DNA of 19,793 nucleotides from Thermoleophilia bacterium (GTDB taxonomy: Bacteria; Actinomycetota; Thermoleophilia; Gaiellales; JAICJC01): NCBI GenBank assembly GCA_025928435.1, contig JAICJM010000057.1:1-19793 (forward strand), given 5' to 3'. How positions within the stretch are numbered: position 1 is the first letter of the stretch; every line of letters begins with the position of its first letter. The position numbers and the translations under genes are program-made. Positions 1,910 through 13,635 of the stretch are shown one piece after another. The notes beneath the pieces were generated by a model. It did no database searches and was not told the DNA's origin. It saw nothing but the letters and a program-made list of their open reading frames with translations.

Positions 1910-1945
1910 TTGCGGCTCCACCCGCAACGTGCGAACATACGTTCG
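1910..1945 (+). promoter_or_regulatory. Predicted promoter with LexA-like (SOS) operator
   Basis: CGAACATACGTTCG at 1932-1945 fits the Gram-positive/actinobacterial LexA box (CGAAC-N4-GTTCG, also written CGAACRNRYGTTYG) at every defined position. A possible -35 TTGCGG (1910-1915) lies 17 nt before GAACAT (1933-1938), so the box would cover a -10 element and repressor binding would block transcription of the cyclase fusion gene. The box is visible directly. The promoter assignment is weak because the -10 is poor. Confidence 0.6.
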
Positions 1946-2000
1946 TCGAGCGATGGGAGAAAGAGTGGGCCGGGAAGCGTCCGTGTGCCAGACTGCATCC

Positions 2001-5000
2001 ATGGTGGTGACGGAGGGAGAGCGCCGCGTCGTTGCGGTGCTGATGGCGGATGTGGCCGGCTCGACGGCGATCGGCGAGCAGCTCGGTCCCGAGCGGTCCA
2101 AGTTCCTCTTCGACGAGGTCGTCCGGCTGATGGCGGAGCAGGTCGAGCGCTACGACGGGACCGTCGCACAGCTGCTCGGCGACGGCCTGCTCGCGGTCTT
2201 CGGCGCGCCCGTCGCGCACGAGGACGACAGCGAGCGGGCGGTGCGCGCCGGCCTCGCCCTGCAGCGCGCCCTGGCCGCCTACTCCCGTGACGTCGACGAG
2301 GCCTACGGCATCGAGCTGCGGGCCCGCGTCGCGGTAAACACGGGCCCGGTGCTGATCACGCCCGACTCCGACGGCGCGGAGCACTTCAATGCCCTCGGCG
2401 ACACCGTGAACGTGACCGCCCGTCTGCAGGCGCTGGCCGGCGAGGCCGACGTCATGCTGGGGCCGGACACCGCCGTCCAGGTGCGTGGCTGCTTCGAGCT
2501 CGAGGATCTCGGGCCGACGGAGCTTCGGGGGCGGTCGCGCCCCGTCGACCGCTACCGGGTCGTGGGCGAGCGCGACCGCGGCGCCCGGCCGGCGGACGGC
2601 CCGCTCGTCGGGCGCGCGAACGAGCTGGGTGAGGTGCGCGGCGCCTTCGAGCGGCTCGGCGACGGGATCGGCGTCATCGTCTCGGTCACCGGCGAGCCGG
2701 GGATCGGGAAGTCGCGCCTGGCGGCCGAGTCCGTCGACCCGTTCCGCGACCGGCTGAAGGTGCTCGTCGGCCGCGGCCTCTCCTACACCCAGGGCTTCTC
2801 GTACTGGCCGATCCGCGACCTGCTGCGCGACTGGCTCGGCGCCTCGGCGACCACGAGCGAGGCCCGCATCCGCTTCGACCTCAAGGCAGCGCTGCACGAG
2901 CTCTATGGGCCTGGCGACGACCGCTACCCCTTTCTCGCCAACCTGCTCGGGCTGCAGGAGGCCGACCGGCGCGCGGCCGCCTACCTGCGCGAGTTCTCAC
3001 ACGACGTCCTGCACCGGCGCAGCCTCGAGGTGGTGGCCGACCTGCTCACGCGCCTGGCCGCCGAGCGCCCGCTGCTGGTCGTGTTCGAGGACCTGCACTG
3101 GGCGGACGAGCTCACGCTGCAGGCGGTGGAGAGCCTGCTCGACCTGACCGAGACCGAGCCGCTCGGCATCGCGCTCCTCTACCGCAGCGAGCGCGAGCTC
3201 CCGTCGTGGGGCGTCGGGGAGCGCGCCCGCCAGCACTACCCTCACCGTTATGTAGAGGTTGAGCTTCGTGCCCTCGGCGGCGATGCGACCCTCGAGCTCG
3301 CCCAGGCGCTCGCGGACGCGCCGCTGCCCGAGGCCGTCGCCGAGCTGATCGCCCAGCGCGCCGGCGGAAACCCGCTGTTCGTGAGCGAGGCGCTGCGCGA
3401 CCTCGTCGAGCGGGGCGCGCTGCGGCGCGTGAACGGCGGTTGGGAGCTGGCGGTCGATCCCGGCCGGCTCGAGGTGCCCGCGCTCGTCCAGGGCGTGCTC
3501 CAGGCCCGCCTCGACCGGCTGGACGCCGCCGGCCGCGAGACGGTCGCGGTCGCCGCCGTGATCGGCCGCCGGTTCGGGATGCCGCTGCTCGAGCGCGTCC
3601 TGCGCCCCGACATGCTGCCGGCCGCCCTGCTCGAGCTGCAGCGGCTCGACCTCATCGTCGAGGAGCGCCGCCGCCCCTACCCCGAGTACCGCTTCCGCCA
3701 CGGCCTCGTCCAGGAGGCCGCCTACGCCAGCCTGACCGAGTCCGACCGCCAGGAGCTGCACCGGCGTGTCGGCGTGGCGCTCGAGGAGCTGGCCGGCGAC
3801 GAGAAGAGCGGCACGACGCTGGCGCTGCTCGCCCGTCACTTCAGCGCCGCCGACGATCCCGCCCGGGCGGCCGAGTACCTGATCCGGGCCGGCGACGACG
3901 CCCGCGCGATGTACGCCAACCAGGAGGCGATCCGGCACTACCGCCAGGCGCGCGAGTTCCTGGCCCGGATGGGCGACGACCGCCGCTCGCGCGAGACGCT
4001 CTTCAAGATCGCCCTCGTCCACCACCTGGCGTTCAACTTCGCCGAGGCGGAGCGGGCCTACGACGAGGCGTTCGCGTGCAAGGTCGTGCCGCTCGACCAG
4101 CCCGAGCCGACGGAGCGGCTCGCCACCGCGCTGCTGCGGCCCGACGCGCTCGCCCCCGGGCTCGACTACGTCTCCGAGACGAGCGCCCTCACCGCCCACC
4201 TGTTCCGCGGGCTGCTCCTGATCGACCGCGACCTGAACGTGATGCCGTCCCTGGCCGAGAACTTCCGCGTCTCCGGCGACGGGCTCACCTACCTGTTCCA
4301 GCTGCGGGAGAGCGCGTGCTGGAGCGACGGCGAGCCGGTCACGGCGCACGACTTCGTCTACACGTGGGAGCGGGCGCGCCAGCGCTCGACCGTGACGGCC
4401 TTCCTGCTCCAGGACGTCGAGGGGGCGACGGCCCTCGACGACCACACGCTCGAGGTGGTGCTGCGCGAGCCGCGCAACTACTTCCCCTACGTGCTCGCAT
4501 CGACCTACTCCTACCCGTGGCCGCGCCACCTGTGCGAGTCGCAGGGCGACGAGTGGCACCGCGGCCAGCCGCTGGTCTCGAACGGGCCGTTCCTGCTCGA
4601 GAGCATCGACGACGATCGCCTGGTGATGGTCGCCAACCCGCGCTGGACGGGGCGCCGCGGCAACCTGCGCGAGATCGAGGTCGACTTCCGCATCCATGCC
4701 ACGACGACCGCGGTGAAGGACCTGTGGGCGTCGGGCCGGGTGGACGTGCTCTCCATGCCCTTCGTGCCGGAGGAGGACGACGAGGCCTGCGTCGACCTGG
4801 CGCCGACCCTCGGGACGGCCATGATCGGCTTCCGCAGCGACCGCGGCCCGCTGGCCGACGTGCGCGTGCGCCGGGCCGTCGCGGCCGCGCTCGCCCCGGT
4901 CGCCCGCGCGTTCCCCGAGAGCGGGCTCATCAGCCGCCCGGCGGAGAACGGCGGCCTCCTGCCGCCGGCGATGCCGGGACACGACCACCACGTCTCCGCC

Positions 5001-5552
5001 GCGCTCGATCTCGACGGCGCCCGGGCGCTCGTCGCCGAGGCGGGCTACCCCGGCGGCGAGGGCCTGCCGCGGCTCCGGCTGCTGATCGCGAAGGGCTTCT
5101 CGGTGCTGCTCGACACCATTGAGGCCGCTTTCGCCGAGATCGGAGTCGGCGTCGACTTCACCGTGAGCGAGCGGGCCATCCGCACCGCAGACGACGACTC
5201 CGACCTGTGGATGGGCGCCTGGCTGGCCGACTACCCCGATCCGGACGGCTTCTTCCGCGGGCTGCTCGAGGATCCGTGCGACCCGGTCGCCGAGCCGGAG
5301 ATGACCGGCGAGCTGCGCGACCTGCTGAGCCGCGCGCGCGCCTCGCGCGACCAGGACGAGCGGCTCGAGATGTACGGGCACGTCGACCGGCTGCTCGTGG
5401 CCGAGTGGTGCGTCCTCGTGCCCGTGGCCTACCTGCGCACGACGGTCCTGCGGCGGCCGTGGGTGCACGGCCTGTGGGCGAACGCGCTCACGCCGTTCCG
5501 GCTCGACGGCGTCATCGTCGACCGCGAAGAGCACCCGGACGCCGCCGGGTGA
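2001..5552 (+). CDS. Class III adenylate/guanylate cyclase - STAND ATPase - SBP family 5 fusion
   Basis: One uninterrupted protein of about 1183 residues. Residues ~8-165 are a class III cyclase: metal-binding Asp in MADVAGST and LLGDGLLAVFG, transition-state Asn and Arg in VNVTARL. Residues ~205-600 are an AAA/STAND ATPase with Walker A GEPGIGKS (~231) and Walker B LLVVFEDLHWAD (~360). A short helical, TPR-like stretch follows. From about 710 to the end is an oligopeptide-binding domain (SBP_bac_5, as in OppA/DppA): LTAHLFRGLLLIDRDLN, DGLTYLFQLRE, SDGEPVTAHDFVYTWERA, SNGPFLLES. There is no signal peptide or membrane segment, so the binding domain should be cytosolic. The adenine-selecting Lys (here Gln) and its partner Asp/Thr (here Asn) are replaced, so product and activity are uncertain. 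ATG 2001 starts just before the cyclase fold; GTG 1965, with GGAG 5 nt ahead, is an alternative. A LexA-like box lies upstream, and the stop overlaps the EamA start. Likely a ligand-sensing signal protein (inference). Confidence 0.92.
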   Translation: MVVTEGERRVVAVLMADVAGSTAIGEQLGPERSKFLFDEVVRLMAEQVERYDGTVAQLLGDGLLAVFGAPVAHEDDSERAVRAGLALQRALAAYSRDVDEAYGIELRARVAVNTGPVLITPDSDGAEHFNALGDTVNVTARLQALAGEADVMLGPDTAVQVRGCFELEDLGPTELRGRSRPVDRYRVVGERDRGARPADGPLVGRANELGEVRGAFERLGDGIGVIVSVTGEPGIGKSRLAAESVDPFRDRLKVLVGRGLSYTQGFSYWPIRDLLRDWLGASATTSEARIRFDLKAALHELYGPGDDRYPFLANLLGLQEADRRAAAYLREFSHDVLHRRSLEVVADLLTRLAAERPLLVVFEDLHWADELTLQAVESLLDLTETEPLGIALLYRSERELPSWGVGERARQHYPHRYVEVELRALGGDATLELAQALADAPLPEAVAELIAQRAGGNPLFVSEALRDLVERGALRRVNGGWELAVDPGRLEVPALVQGVLQARLDRLDAAGRETVAVAAVIGRRFGMPLLERVLRPDMLPAALLELQRLDLIVEERRRPYPEYRFRHGLVQEAAYASLTESDRQELHRRVGVALEELAGDEKSGTTLALLARHFSAADDPARAAEYLIRAGDDARAMYANQEAIRHYRQAREFLARMGDDRRSRETLFKIALVHHLAFNFAEAERAYDEAFACKVVPLDQPEPTERLATALLRPDALAPGLDYVSETSALTAHLFRGLLLIDRDLNVMPSLAENFRVSGDGLTYLFQLRESACWSDGEPVTAHDFVYTWERARQRSTVTAFLLQDVEGATALDDHTLEVVLREPRNYFPYVLASTYSYPWPRHLCESQGDEWHRGQPLVSNGPFLLESIDDDRLVMVANPRWTGRRGNLREIEVDFRIHATTTAVKDLWASGRVDVLSMPFVPEEDDEACVDLAPTLGTAMIGFRSDRGPLADVRVRRAVAAALAPVARAFPESGLISRPAENGGLLPPAMPGHDHHVSAALDLDGARALVAEAGYPGGEGLPRLRLLIAKGFSVLLDTIEAAFAEIGVGVDFTVSERAIRTADDDSDLWMGAWLADYPDPDGFFRGLLEDPCDPVAEPEMTGELRDLLSRARASRDQDERLEMYGHVDRLLVAEWCVLVPVAYLRTTVLRRPWVHGLWANALTPFRLDGVIVDREEHPDAAG

Positions 5553-6496
5553 GCTCACCGGCCGAGCCGGCGCCCGCGCCGGCGGCGTCCGCGGGGCAGC
5601 CTCCCGCGGCGGAGGTGATGGCCGCCTTCGCTGCGATCTACTTCGTCTGGGGATCGACGTTTCTCGCCATCCGCTACGCGGTGGAGACGATCCCGCCGTT
5701 CGCGATGATGGCCGGGCGGTGCCTCTTCGGCGGGGCGGTGCTGCTCGTGCTCGGGTTGATCCGGGAGCGCGACCCCGACTGGCCGACGCGGCGGGAGTGG
5801 GGCGGGGCGCTGGTGATCGGGACGCTCCTCTTCGTCGGCTGCCACGGCGTGCTCGCGTACGCCGAGGAGCGGGTGCCGTCCGGCATCGCCGCCCTGTGCC
5901 TGGCGACGATCCCGCTCTTCGTCCCCCTGCTCGCCTGGGCGCTGCCGGACGGGCGGCCGCCGTCGCGGCGGCGGGCCGGGGCGTTCGTGGTCGGGTTCGC
6001 CGGCGTCGCGCTGCTGGTCGCCTCCCAGGGGACGGGCGGCGGGCTGCATGCGACCGACGCGGCGCTCCTGGTCGGGAGCGCCCTCTCGTGGGCGGCCGGG
6101 ACGGTCGCCACGCGCGTGGTGCCCGTGCCGCGCTCACCCGTGCTCGGCGCGGCGATGCCACTGCTCGCGGGCGGCATCATCCTCGTCCTCGTCGCCGCCG
6201 GGTCGGGCGAGCTCTCGTCGCTCCACGTCAACGATGTCTCGGGCCGCTCGATCGCCGGCCTCGCGTACCTCGTTGTGTTCGGGACCGTCCTCACCTTCTC
6301 CGCCTACGTCTGGCTTCTGCGGGTCGTCGCGCCGGCGCGGGTCGCGACGTACGCGTTCGTGAACCCGGCGGTGGCGGTCGTGCTGGGGTGGGCGGTCGCG
6401 GGCGAGTCGCTCACCGCGGGCGCCGTCGTGGCGAGCGCCGTGATCGTGGCCGCCGTCGCGGTCGCGGTCTCCGAGCGCGAGCCGGCCCCGGTCTGA
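5549..6496 (+). CDS. EamA/DMT-superfamily transporter
   Basis: A 315-residue inner-membrane protein with about ten hydrophobic helices in two homologous halves, the EamA (RhaT/YedA) plan. The first helix, AAFAAIYFVWGSTFLAIRYA, has the WGS signature of this family. The second half has LVVFGTVLTFSAYVWLLRVV and ARVATYAFVNPAVAVVLGW, both typical of EamA exporters. Family members export metabolites such as amino acids or other small molecules; the substrate cannot be read from the sequence. The GTG start at 5549 overlaps the TGA of the cyclase fusion gene (GTGA), so translational coupling is expected and the two genes form one transcription unit. An Ala/Pro-rich cytosolic N-terminal tail of about 25 residues precedes the first helix. 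Confidence 0.9.
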   Translation: MSSPAEPAPAPAASAGQPPAAEVMAAFAAIYFVWGSTFLAIRYAVETIPPFAMMAGRCLFGGAVLLVLGLIRERDPDWPTRREWGGALVIGTLLFVGCHGVLAYAEERVPSGIAALCLATIPLFVPLLAWALPDGRPPSRRRAGAFVVGFAGVALLVASQGTGGGLHATDAALLVGSALSWAAGTVATRVVPVPRSPVLGAAMPLLAGGIILVLVAAGSGELSSLHVNDVSGRSIAGLAYLVVFGTVLTFSAYVWLLRVVAPARVATYAFVNPAVAVVLGWAVAGESLTAGAVVASAVIVAAVAVAVSEREPAPV

Positions 6497-6520
6497 GCCG
6501 CCTCACGCCCGAGCAGGAAT

Positions 6521-6549
6521 TTGACAGCGACACAGTTACGATATATCGT
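6521..6549 (+). promoter_or_regulatory. padR promoter with palindromic operator
   Basis: TTGACA (6521-6526), a 17-nt spacer, then TATCGT (6544-6549). The perfect 12-bp palindrome ACGATATATCGT (6538-6549) covers the -10. AT-rich palindromes containing GATATATC-type cores are usual PadR operators, so negative autoregulation is likely. The AT-rich sequence stands out against its GC-rich surroundings. Confidence 0.7.
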
Positions 6550-6596
6550 GATGTGACGCGATAGTCATGAAACCAGAGAATCAGGAGGATTCCCAG

Positions 6597-7238
6597 ATGA
6601 CGTACGCAGAGACGATTCCGATGGGCGGCCACGGCAGACGCCACCGCCATCGGATGCACAAGTTCGCCCGTCGCCGGCACGGCGGGGGCGACCCCTTCGC
6701 CCCGTTCGGGCGCGGCTGGGGCAAGGGCGAGAACGCCTTCTTCGGCGGCCGCGGCCGCAGGGCCGGGCGCGGCGACATCCGCGCTGCGATCCTCGCCCTC
6801 CTCGCCGAGGAGAGCATGCACGGCTACCAGATCATCCGCGAGCTCGGCGAGCGCACCGGCGGGGCCTGGAACCCCAGCCCCGGATCGGTCTACCCGACGC
6901 TCCAGCAGCTCGAGGACGAGGAGCTCGTGCGGCAGCAGGGCTCCGGCACCGGCCGCCGCGTCTACGAGCTGACCGACGCCGGCCGCGAGGCGGCCGCGGC
7001 GCTGCCCTCACCGGCCCCGTGGGAGCAGGTGGCAGCCGAGGCTCACGACGAGCACGGCGACCTGCGCAGCCTCGTGTTCCAGGTGCTCGGCGCGGTGCGG
7101 CAGGTCGCGATGGCCGGGACGCCGGACCAGCGCGAGAAGGCGCAGGAGGTGCTGCGCACCACCCGCCGCAGCCTGTACGGGATCCTGGCCGAGGAGGACG
7201 ACGCTCCCGGCGGGACGCCCGGGGGAACGACCGTCTAG
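6597..7238 (+). CDS. PadR-family transcriptional regulator
   Basis: A 213-residue repressor-type protein. The N-terminal ~60 residues are rich in Gly, His and Arg (HGRRHRHRMHKFARRRHGGG), a low-complexity extension common in actinobacterial PadR proteins; it might bind metal or contact DNA non-specifically. The winged helix follows: GDIRAAILALLAEESMHGYQ, IIRELGERTGGAWNPSPGSV, YPTLQQLEDEELV and YELTDAGRE. These are the diagnostic PadR motifs. The C-terminal part (LRSLVFQVLGAVRQVAM onward) is a helical dimerisation region. ATG 6597 is chosen because AGGAGG (6583-6588) sits 8 nt before it; an in-frame ATG at 6567 has no such site. PadR proteins often control efflux or detoxification genes. The nearest candidate target, besides itself, is the preceding EamA gene, but no direct link is visible. 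Confidence 0.93.
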   Translation: MTYAETIPMGGHGRRHRHRMHKFARRRHGGGDPFAPFGRGWGKGENAFFGGRGRRAGRGDIRAAILALLAEESMHGYQIIRELGERTGGAWNPSPGSVYPTLQQLEDEELVRQQGSGTGRRVYELTDAGREAAAALPSPAPWEQVAAEAHDEHGDLRSLVFQVLGAVRQVAMAGTPDQREKAQEVLRTTRRSLYGILAEEDDAPGGTPGGTTV

Positions 7239-7255
7239 AGCCGGCGGGCGGCGGG

Positions 7256-7270
7256 CGGCTCAGTGAGCCG
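7256..7270. terminator. Bidirectional hairpin between convergent genes
   Basis: CGGCTC-AGT-GAGCCG forms a 6-bp GC-rich stem with a triloop in the 63-bp gap between the stops of padR (+) and the PHP gene (-). No T-tract is present on either side. It is the only obvious terminator candidate for either gene. Confidence 0.5.
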
Positions 7271-7301
7271 GAGTCGCCCGCACCCGCCTCGGGCGCGCCG
7301 C

Positions 7302-8228
7302 CTAGAGTGCGACGGGGTTCGACCAGGCCGTGCCGCCGGCGGTGTCCGCCAGCTCGATGCGGGCGGCGGCGGCGCCGGGCGGCGGCGCGAACTCGACGGC
7401 GGTGATCAGCCCGGTCGACGGGTCGCGGTCGACGATCCTGGCCCGGTGGCGGAACGCGAGCCGGCCGACCATCGCCCGGCCGCCGTCCTCCGGCCCGGTG
7501 CACAGCGTGACCGAGCGGCAGGGGCTGCAGCGCACGAGCAGGCCGCCGGGAACCGGCTCGATCGTGTCGAAGCGCGGGCCGGTCGACGAGTAGCAGGCGC
7601 CGCTGCGCAGGGCGGCGACGACGCCCTCGGGCGTGGCCTCGGCGGCGTGGGCCATCGTCCAGGCATAGCCCGAGTCGAAGCCGGCGTAGTGGGTGTCGTC
7701 GCAGGCGACGGCGAAGCAGGGATGGCCGCCGTCGAGCAGCGTGTCCCAGTGCACGGTCGAGAGGCCCCGGCCGCACTCGATCTCGCAGCCGGCGTTGTAG
7801 ACCTCGATGCCGACGACCGCGGGCAGGCCGGGCACGAGGTCCATCGGCACGCCGGTCCAGTAGGGATGGGCGATGTAGGCGACCCCGCCGTGCTCGGCGA
7901 CGAACTCCATCGCGTCGGGCAGGTCGGGATAGCTGCCCTCGTCGTCGGGATCGATCTCGAGCTCACGGTCGAGGCCGTAGACGAGCACGTCCACCCACAC
8001 GCCCCCGGGCGTGCGGCAGGTGAGCTCGATCCCGGGCACGAGCACCATCCCGTCCCGTTCCGGCGGATGGGTGATCGTCCAGTGGTCGGTGACGGCGAGG
8101 GCGTCCCACTCGGCGCGCTCGTAGTGGTCGACGAGCGCCTCGGGCTGGAGCTCGCCGTCGGAGCGGGTGGTGTGGGCGTGGAGCGCACAGCGCAGCCACG
8201 TGCCCTCTGTCTGGAAGGGGTTCGTCAT
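7302..8228 (-). CDS. PHP-domain metal-dependent phosphoesterase (CehA/McbA-like)
   Basis: A cytosolic protein of about 308 residues with a PHP metallophosphoesterase domain. The metal-ligand motifs appear in order: LHAHTTRSDG (HxH plus Asp), VTDHWTI, PGIELTC, YIAHPYW and ACDDTHY. They line a trinuclear metal site in this family. The C-terminal ~90 residues (GGLLVRCSPCRSVTLCTG and onward) look like the beta-rich extension common in CehA/McbA-type proteins. Substrates vary from histidinol phosphate to nucleotides or phosphodiesters and cannot be assigned here. The start MTNPF at 8228 is chosen by distance to the HxH motif; ATG 8252 is in frame and would add 8 residues. No strong ribosome site is seen for either. 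It follows the racemase-family gene by 34 nt (10 nt with the longer start), so the two are probably an operon. Confidence 0.88.
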   Translation of the reverse strand: MTNPFQTEGTWLRCALHAHTTRSDGELQPEALVDHYERAEWDALAVTDHWTITHPPERDGMVLVPGIELTCRTPGGVWVDVLVYGLDRELEIDPDDEGSYPDLPDAMEFVAEHGGVAYIAHPYWTGVPMDLVPGLPAVVGIEVYNAGCEIECGRGLSTVHWDTLLDGGHPCFAVACDDTHYAGFDSGYAWTMAHAAEATPEGVVAALRSGACYSSTGPRFDTIEPVPGGLLVRCSPCRSVTLCTGPEDGGRAMVGRLAFRHRARIVDRDPSTGLITAVEFAPPPGAAAARIELADTAGGTAWSNPVAL

Positions 8229-8262
8229 CGCCGGGTCGGGCGAATCTACCATCGCGTGGGCC

Positions 8263-13200: not shown

Positions 13201-13635
13201 TCAGTGGGCGGCGGAGCGCTCCGCCGCGCGCAGGCGCTGGGCCATCGTCTGGAGCAGGGCGACCGCGATCTTCGGCTCCTCCTGCACGGTCTTCATGAAC
13301 GCGTTGCGGCCGAGCAGCATGGCGAAGACGTCGGTCTGCGCCTCGACGGTCGCCGCCCGGGGAGCGGCGTCGATCAGCGCCATCTCCCCGAACCAGTCGC
13401 CGGCGCCGAGGCGCTTCGCGCGCTTGCCGGGCAGCTTCACGAGCGCGGTCCCGTCGAGGATGACGTAGAAGCTGTCGCCGCGGTCGCCCGCGCGGACGAT
13501 CGCCGTGTAGCGGGCGTAGCGGCGGGTCTTGCCCAGCCGCGCAATCTTGTTCAGGTGACGCTTGGAGAGGCCGGCGAAGAGCGGGATCTCTCCCAGCACG
13601 TCGTCCCAGCCACGGCCCATCGAATCGGTCGGCAT
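13201..13635 (-). CDS. Stand-alone cyclic-nucleotide-binding domain protein
   Basis: A 144-residue protein made of a single cNMP-binding domain of the CRP/PKA type. IPLFAGLSKRHLNKIARLG is the usual N-terminal helix. VRAGDRGDSFYVILDGTALV and GAGDWFGEMALIDAAPRAAT follow; the last is the phosphate-binding cassette with Glu and Arg. A C-terminal helical segment (LLQTMAQRLRAAER) may dimerise. There is no helix-turn-helix, kinase or channel domain, so it cannot act as a CRP-type activator alone. It may bind cAMP or cGMP and a protein partner (inference). ATG 13635 has GGGAGA 4 nt ahead on the minus strand, which supports this start; ATG 13620 is a weaker alternative. The cyclase fusion gene about 8 kb away is a possible second-messenger source, but no direct link is visible. 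Confidence 0.9.
   Translation of the reverse strand: MPTDSMGRGWDDVLGEIPLFAGLSKRHLNKIARLGKTRRYARYTAIVRAGDRGDSFYVILDGTALVKLPGKRAKRLGAGDWFGEMALIDAAPRAATVEAQTDVFAMLLGRNAFMKTVQEEPKIAVALLQTMAQRLRAAERSAAH

Follow-up and report, generated by a model that had tools for sequence, protein, structure and literature searches.

The gene at positions 2,001 to 5,552 of a 19,793-nucleotide stretch from a Thermoleophilia soil bacterium (contig JAICJM010000057.1, assembly GCA_025928435.1; the whole stretch is termed the window) encodes a single protein that joins a class III nucleotide cyclase, a STAND ATPase, and an OppA/DppA-type solute-binding protein (SBP) domain. As judged from sequence comparison, this fusion is probably a soluble cytosolic one-component receptor in which the SBP domain would be the sensor, the STAND ATPase the switch, and the cyclase the output. 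Chances are about even for a broader proposal, according to which a branch of OppA-like proteins entered the cytosol once, became a sensor cassette that was exchanged among STAND proteins with cyclase, SARP/BTAD or helix-turn-helix (HTH), kinase, and CHAT-peptidase outputs, and expanded to as many as four tandem domains. If this is true, such proteins are NLR-like bacterial receptors with a ligand domain that can be assayed directly. To our knowledge, the trigger of many STAND receptors is not known, as their TPR or WD40 sensor ends bind partners that cannot be predicted, and since an SBP can be produced by itself for ligand screening, the trigger of a bacterial STAND protein would become directly testable.

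The preliminary description of the window proposed that one frame contains the cyclase, the P-loop ATPase, and the SBP, and a Pfam search of the fusion protein bears this out, with Guanylate_cyc, AAA_16, and SBP_bac_5 well above the cut-off and TPR_12 below it (NCBIfam matches were below cut-off only). Among PDB sequences OppA matches best, and the front part is matched by adenylate cyclases. The open frame extends from 1929 to 5552 (+; 1207 aa, first codon GTG at 1929), and the ATG at 2001, from which residues are numbered here, is the start that mostly fits those of the homologues. Conservation refers to a 42-member alignment made up of the window protein plus 41 of the 120 relatives listed in a search with its SBP part. 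The parts of the gene are:

2001..5552, + strand: the whole cyclase-STAND-TPR-SBP fusion gene, 1183 aa from the ATG at 2001
2025..2540, + strand: class III nucleotide cyclase domain (Pfam PF00211)
2601..3164, + strand: AAA_16 P-loop ATPase part of the STAND module (Pfam PF13191)
2691..2714, + strand: Walker A motif, GEPGIGKS (G231, G234, G236, and K237 in 42/42)
3072..3107, + strand: Walker B motif, LLVVFEDLHWAD (D364 in 42/42, E363 in 41/42)
3165..3740, + strand: remainder of the STAND module, helical, with an invariant GGNP motif (alignment and model secondary structure; border approximate)
3741..4100, + strand: short TPR-like helical linker (weak TPR_12 match and model helices; border approximate)
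4101..5528, + strand: complete, leaderless OppA/DppA-type SBP_bac_5 domain (Pfam, PDB match, model, and structure search)
5229..5231, + strand: codon of D1077, aligned with OppA D419 (42/42 in the alignment, 121/121 in the family)

Class III cyclases depend on two metal-binding Asp residues and a transition-state Asn/Arg pair, and the N-terminal domain is assigned to this class by its Pfam match and by these residues, with D17, D61, N137, and R141 invariant in all 42 aligned members. The central module has Walker A and B motifs of the AAA_16 type followed by a helical region, as expected of a STAND ATPase. At the C-terminus the SBP_bac_5 profile coincides with a complete two-lobe fold in the structure search, whose rows cover the SBP part only, and the assignment to SBP family 5 thus withstands the structural check. 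The highest mean Kyte-Doolittle value over 19 residues is 1.53, and the protein is therefore considered to lack both a membrane helix and a leader, in agreement with the cytosolic location originally proposed. OppA, DppA, and DppE are exported and feed ABC transporters, whereas the fusion starts with its cyclase domain, contains no signal peptide or lipobox, and has no oligopeptide ABC transporter near it among the ten window genes scanned with Pfam, and a role in transport was rejected on these grounds. Many of its relatives have the database name 'ABC-type transport system substrate-binding protein/class 3 adenylate cyclase', and many proteins that are named as transport components are more likely to be intracellular receptors.

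The architecture is widespread. The SBP-part search, limited to proteins of 0.55-1.75 times the length of the fusion, gave 403 matches at E ≤ 1e-10, and 113 of the 120 listed among them have all three domains; the few names given among these 120 are Gaiellales, Gaiellaceae, or Actinomycetota, and the close loci are from Thermoleophilia. A contig search gave 582 relatives, from which 80 loci were retained, and in eight of these the match extends across the SBP part (L001-L007 and L010, the last a Chloroflexi locus). Of 299 genomes in the same class as L001, 23 have a match at E ≤ 1e-125, one copy each, and seven of these 23 were seeds taken from the contig search; 22 match end to end and one match stops near a contig end. 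Each of eight seed genomes has one fusion among 2-14 matches at E ≤ 1e-20, that of genome G008 lying in two frames. Among the 2864 matching plasmid records, none spans 80% of the fusion protein, and an apparent fusion on a Phyllobacterium plasmid is in fact two adjacent genes, one for an SBP and one for a cyclase.

That the frame is an artefact, whether a frameshift, an assembly join, or the decayed product of a fusion between cyclase and transport genes, is extremely improbable. Seven of the 120 listed relatives are shorter and lack the cyclase domain, the Chloroflexota copy in G008 is split across two frames, and an internal stop is listed in four of the 22 end-to-end genome matches, all of which would fit such an origin. 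The three-domain relatives, the genomes with end-to-end matches, and codon-level constraint through every domain nevertheless speak, as far as comparison can show, for rejecting an assembly join or frameshift, which the preliminary description had named as a risk. The dN/dS values are 0.047 (cyclase), 0.095 (STAND), 0.064 (TPR), and 0.169 (SBP) against L001, and 0.039, 0.10, 0.127, and 0.265, respectively, against L092, so every part is under constraint and the putative sensor is the fastest to change. In addition, the close relatives of the SBP part that were inspected are leaderless and mostly start within STAND or TPR sequence, and leaders in SBP relatives are seen only near 30% identity.

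The SBP was proposed to stand in for the long array at the C-terminus of other cyclase-STAND proteins, and the relatives agree, as 64 of the 72 that lack an SBP hold 400-599 residues after the STAND core. The same finding would suit an unlikely alternative in which the SBP is a docking scaffold that replaced the TPR array, lost small-molecule binding, and now holds, for example, an unfolded chain or a partner protein. Proteins are the usual ligands of TPR arrays and the SBP is the fastest-changing part of the fusion, both in keeping with docking, but a scaffold would have no need of the full two-lobe fold, the W-S-D-G motif, and cleft residues such as D1077, all of which are retained.

Support for an exchangeable sensor comes from proteins that have the same tail behind other fronts. 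The Chloroflexota genome G322 encodes three such proteins, namely cyclase-STAND-TPR-SBP, a STAND-TPR-SBP in which no front domain is recognized, and CHAT-cyclase-STAND-TPR-SBP. At E ≤ 1e-10, 1362 proteins matched the tail of the CHAT protein. The 120 that were listed among these, with output labels assigned by hand from the Pfam column, comprise 46 cyclase, 42 BTAD, two kinase, one BTAD plus kinase, one CHAT plus cyclase, and one HTH protein, and 27 labeled as having none, a label that includes front-cut proteins (14 of the 27 begin with a Met 34-36 residues before Walker A). Where the front is a BTAD, kinase, CHAT, or HTH domain, the protein has its tail in common with the window fusion and differs from it in the output; few names are given, mostly Chloroflexota/Anaerolineae. 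Six of the 120 contain two to four SBP copies that are 42-80% identical (four in P0240, three in P0241, and two in each of four others), although AAA_16 is unlisted in P0244 and P0245 and partial in P0241, and P0246 has an incomplete second copy. P0240 (2843 aa) is a BTAD-STAND-TPR protein with four SBPs, the copies of which are mutually 45-50% identical.

Locus L130 of G322 contains a 1674-residue frame (2495-7516, -) with the order CHAT-cyclase (weak match)-STAND-TPR-SBP, its SBP sequence is identical to that of P0242, and it could possibly be a ligand-triggered protease.

The TPR-SBP part was also matched in 62 of 301 genomes from the phylum to which G008 belongs (Chloroflexi, judging from L010). 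At nine places in seven of these genomes the match takes in the TPR region and what follows and lies in a frame longer than 900 aa, while the remaining matches, taken as standalone SBPs, mostly start in the SBP part and lie in frames of about 535-660 aa. Eight of the nine long-frame places were scanned with Pfam, and seven of them carry AAA_16 and SBP_bac_5; L134 has an SBP and a weak TPR match only. Two other long frames, L136 (2671-5817, -; 1049 aa) and L138 (1676-4426, +; 917 aa), have SBP_bac_5 after an N-terminal part of 450-590 residues that gave no Pfam match at the thresholds used. These were rejected as STAND-SBP proteins since no STAND domain was recognized in them, and they group with DppA and other standalone SBPs.

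Trees of the SBP domains were built from 106 rows of the 275 extracted domains and from 89 rows. Proteins truncated at the front were excluded, as was roughly half of the rows with a cyclase or BTAD front. In the first tree, 90 SBPs of the fused group separate from 14 standalone SBPs and the two long non-STAND frames with an SH-aLRT support of 99, the 90 including that of L134, in which no STAND domain is recognized, and the output label (cyclase types merged) needs 23 changes. The split is kept when 26 Chloroflexota rows are added (49 versus 40, support 98), one of the 26 being the same frame as that of L138. In the tree of STAND cores (43 with and 72 without an SBP), the SBP label changes nine times, five of them forced by starred branches, or 11 times if 13 SBP-less frames that run off the locus end and had been dropped are included; loss of the SBP from some STAND cores also scores as a change of label. 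A single clade of SBP-bearing STAND cores is rejected (p-AU 8.7e-7). Because the sampled fused SBPs form one group while their STAND cores do not, the SBP resembles an exchangeable sensor cassette, and the simplest reading is a single cytosolic SBP lineage that was recombined with different STAND cores and outputs. The sensing role put forward at the outset has thereby become likelier by comparison, the SBP being kept behind changing outputs, present in two to four copies, and fast yet constrained in its evolution; ligand binding by the SBP and its control of the cyclase or ATPase are inferred.

Several observations weigh against the receptor and cassette readings. All of the trees are quick searches on chosen rows, and the standalone SBPs in them are those nearest to two queries rather than a random sample. 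No directly adjacent gene is common across the clades of L001-L007 and L010, which thus provide no clue to a pathway. The product and activity of the cyclase are uncertain, because Q57 and N130 (42 of 42 aligned members) replace the usual Lys/Asp substrate-recognition pair. Canonical adenylyl cyclases have a Lys/Asp or Lys/Thr pair and the fusion has neither, which lowers that label and leaves the class III assignment as it is. In a pattern search of 121 members, both Q and N were read in 105, one of them in eight, another letter in one, and neither in seven.

The nature of the ligand is a further difficulty. OppA D419 is the Asp that holds the amino end of a bound peptide, and a peptide ligand for the window SBP is suggested solely by its counterpart, D1077. 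An Asp is found at this position in 14 of 14 standalone SBPs, and in other fused SBPs it is present in 39 of 45 with BTAD, 37 of 46 with cyclase, 31 of 32 with no front, and six of 11 locus rows. It is inherited and is no proof of peptide binding. Moreover, R413 and Y485, which serve the far end of the peptide in OppA, are replaced by Met and Leu, respectively. As the D419-type Asp is equally conserved in standalone SBPs and missing in part of the other fused ones, and R413 is a Met, the ligand may be something other than a peptide. The cleft chemistry was kept in the window family and may have drifted elsewhere, given that the Asp is invariant in the former and partial in the latter.

The SBP could instead detect a metabolite in the cytosol, sugar-like or of another kind, in the way suggested for SgrR and DsvR and with an unchanged switch behind it, an alternative that we regard as doubtful. 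The loss of the far-end residues and the variability of the D419 position elsewhere are consistent with this, as is the existence of SgrR and DsvR, which have a cytosolic SBP_bac_5 tied to sugar metabolism or to a signal not yet known. On the other hand, the D419-type Asp is invariant in the window family, the best sequence and structure matches of the window SBP are peptide binders, and its BLASTP match to SgrR is not meaningful (E 0.23).

SgrR responds to sugar-phosphate stress (PMC4021124), and its homologue DsvR has a predicted N-terminal HTH and a C-terminal SBP_bac5, with an unknown signal (PMC13060122). In a survey of 49 strains, the SBP profile covers less than 60% of the protein in about 12% of the proteins retrieved, these likely being sensor domains, and about 1% are predicted to be cytosolic (PMC9602780). 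A cytosolic SBP sensor is therefore already known in kind, and SgrR and DsvR resemble the window fusion in being cytosolic regulators with a C-terminal SBP_bac_5 as the presumed sensor. They differ in their DNA-binding output, an SgrR_N helix-turn-helix, and in the lack of STAND and cyclase domains; the fusion has neither SgrR_N nor HTH and so falls outside the SgrR family. By eye SgrR lacks the D419-type motif, and with an SBP this distant its standing as a close relative is unsupported. No STAND-SBP fusion is described in the titles or abstract openings of the open-licence literature searched, nor were SBP use on STAND receptors, exchange among them, or tandem arrays found there.

If the window fusion is a ligand-gated receptor, the two lobes of its SBP would close on a small solute, for which a short peptide or other amino-ended molecule is the likeliest candidate, and this closure, transmitted via the TPR stretch, would free the STAND ATPase from a resting state, allowing nucleotide exchange and oligomerization. 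The oligomers would then pair the N-terminal cyclase domains and a cyclic nucleotide would be made. These steps are proposed from the general behavior of STAND proteins and SBPs. The mycobacterial adenylyl cyclase Rv0386 is comparable in part, as it joins a cyclase, an AAA ATPase, and an HTH and has an unusual mechanism of substrate binding; like the fusion, it has a cyclase followed by a signaling ATPase in one soluble protein with unusual substrate selection. Its C-terminus is a DNA-binding HTH, whereas that of the fusion is an SBP. A Gln/Asn substrate pair is also ascribed to Rv0386. The TOMM kinase/cyclase fusion (TIGR03903) resembles the window protein in its cyclase and ATPase parts (262.7 bits), but this score is far under the curated cut-off of 705.75 and no kinase domain was found, and this identity was rejected.

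The genes surrounding the fusion include the following:

47-1858: LigD, upstream of the fusion gene
13201-13635, - strand: stand-alone cyclic-nucleotide-binding protein (PF00027), 8 kb from the fusion gene
6771-7172 of locus L006, - strand: small cyclic-nucleotide-binding protein (PF00027), directly flanked by the fusion gene on one side and a divergent cyclase-STAND paralogue on the other

The downstream genes in the window encode, by Pfam, EamA, PadR, one unrecognized protein, proline racemase, LytR_CpsA_Psr, the cyclic-nucleotide-binding protein, FTR1, MFS, and MMPL. Among genes beside the related loci, the Pfam scan covered two of L006 only. Its location hints that the L006 protein is a cyclic-nucleotide effector, at L006 only, and it is possible that the PF00027 proteins of the window and L006 are both effectors. 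The window and L001 have the genes on either side of the fusion in common, and the pairs L002/L003 and L005/L007 likewise each share theirs. Two weaker matches cross clades: at 77 bits, the cyclic-nucleotide-binding gene of the window matches a neighbour of the fusion gene in L006, and a gene of L007 matches one of L010 (98-119 bits). The match of PycC to the fusion is weak (at most 35 bits, cyclase part only), and no Pycsar effector was recognized among the ten window genes apart from the cyclic-nucleotide-binding gene 8 kb away. A frame of 316 aa in the window (7302-8252, -) has strong codon bias and no Pfam match at 1e-5, and by eye looks like a PHP-type phosphoesterase.

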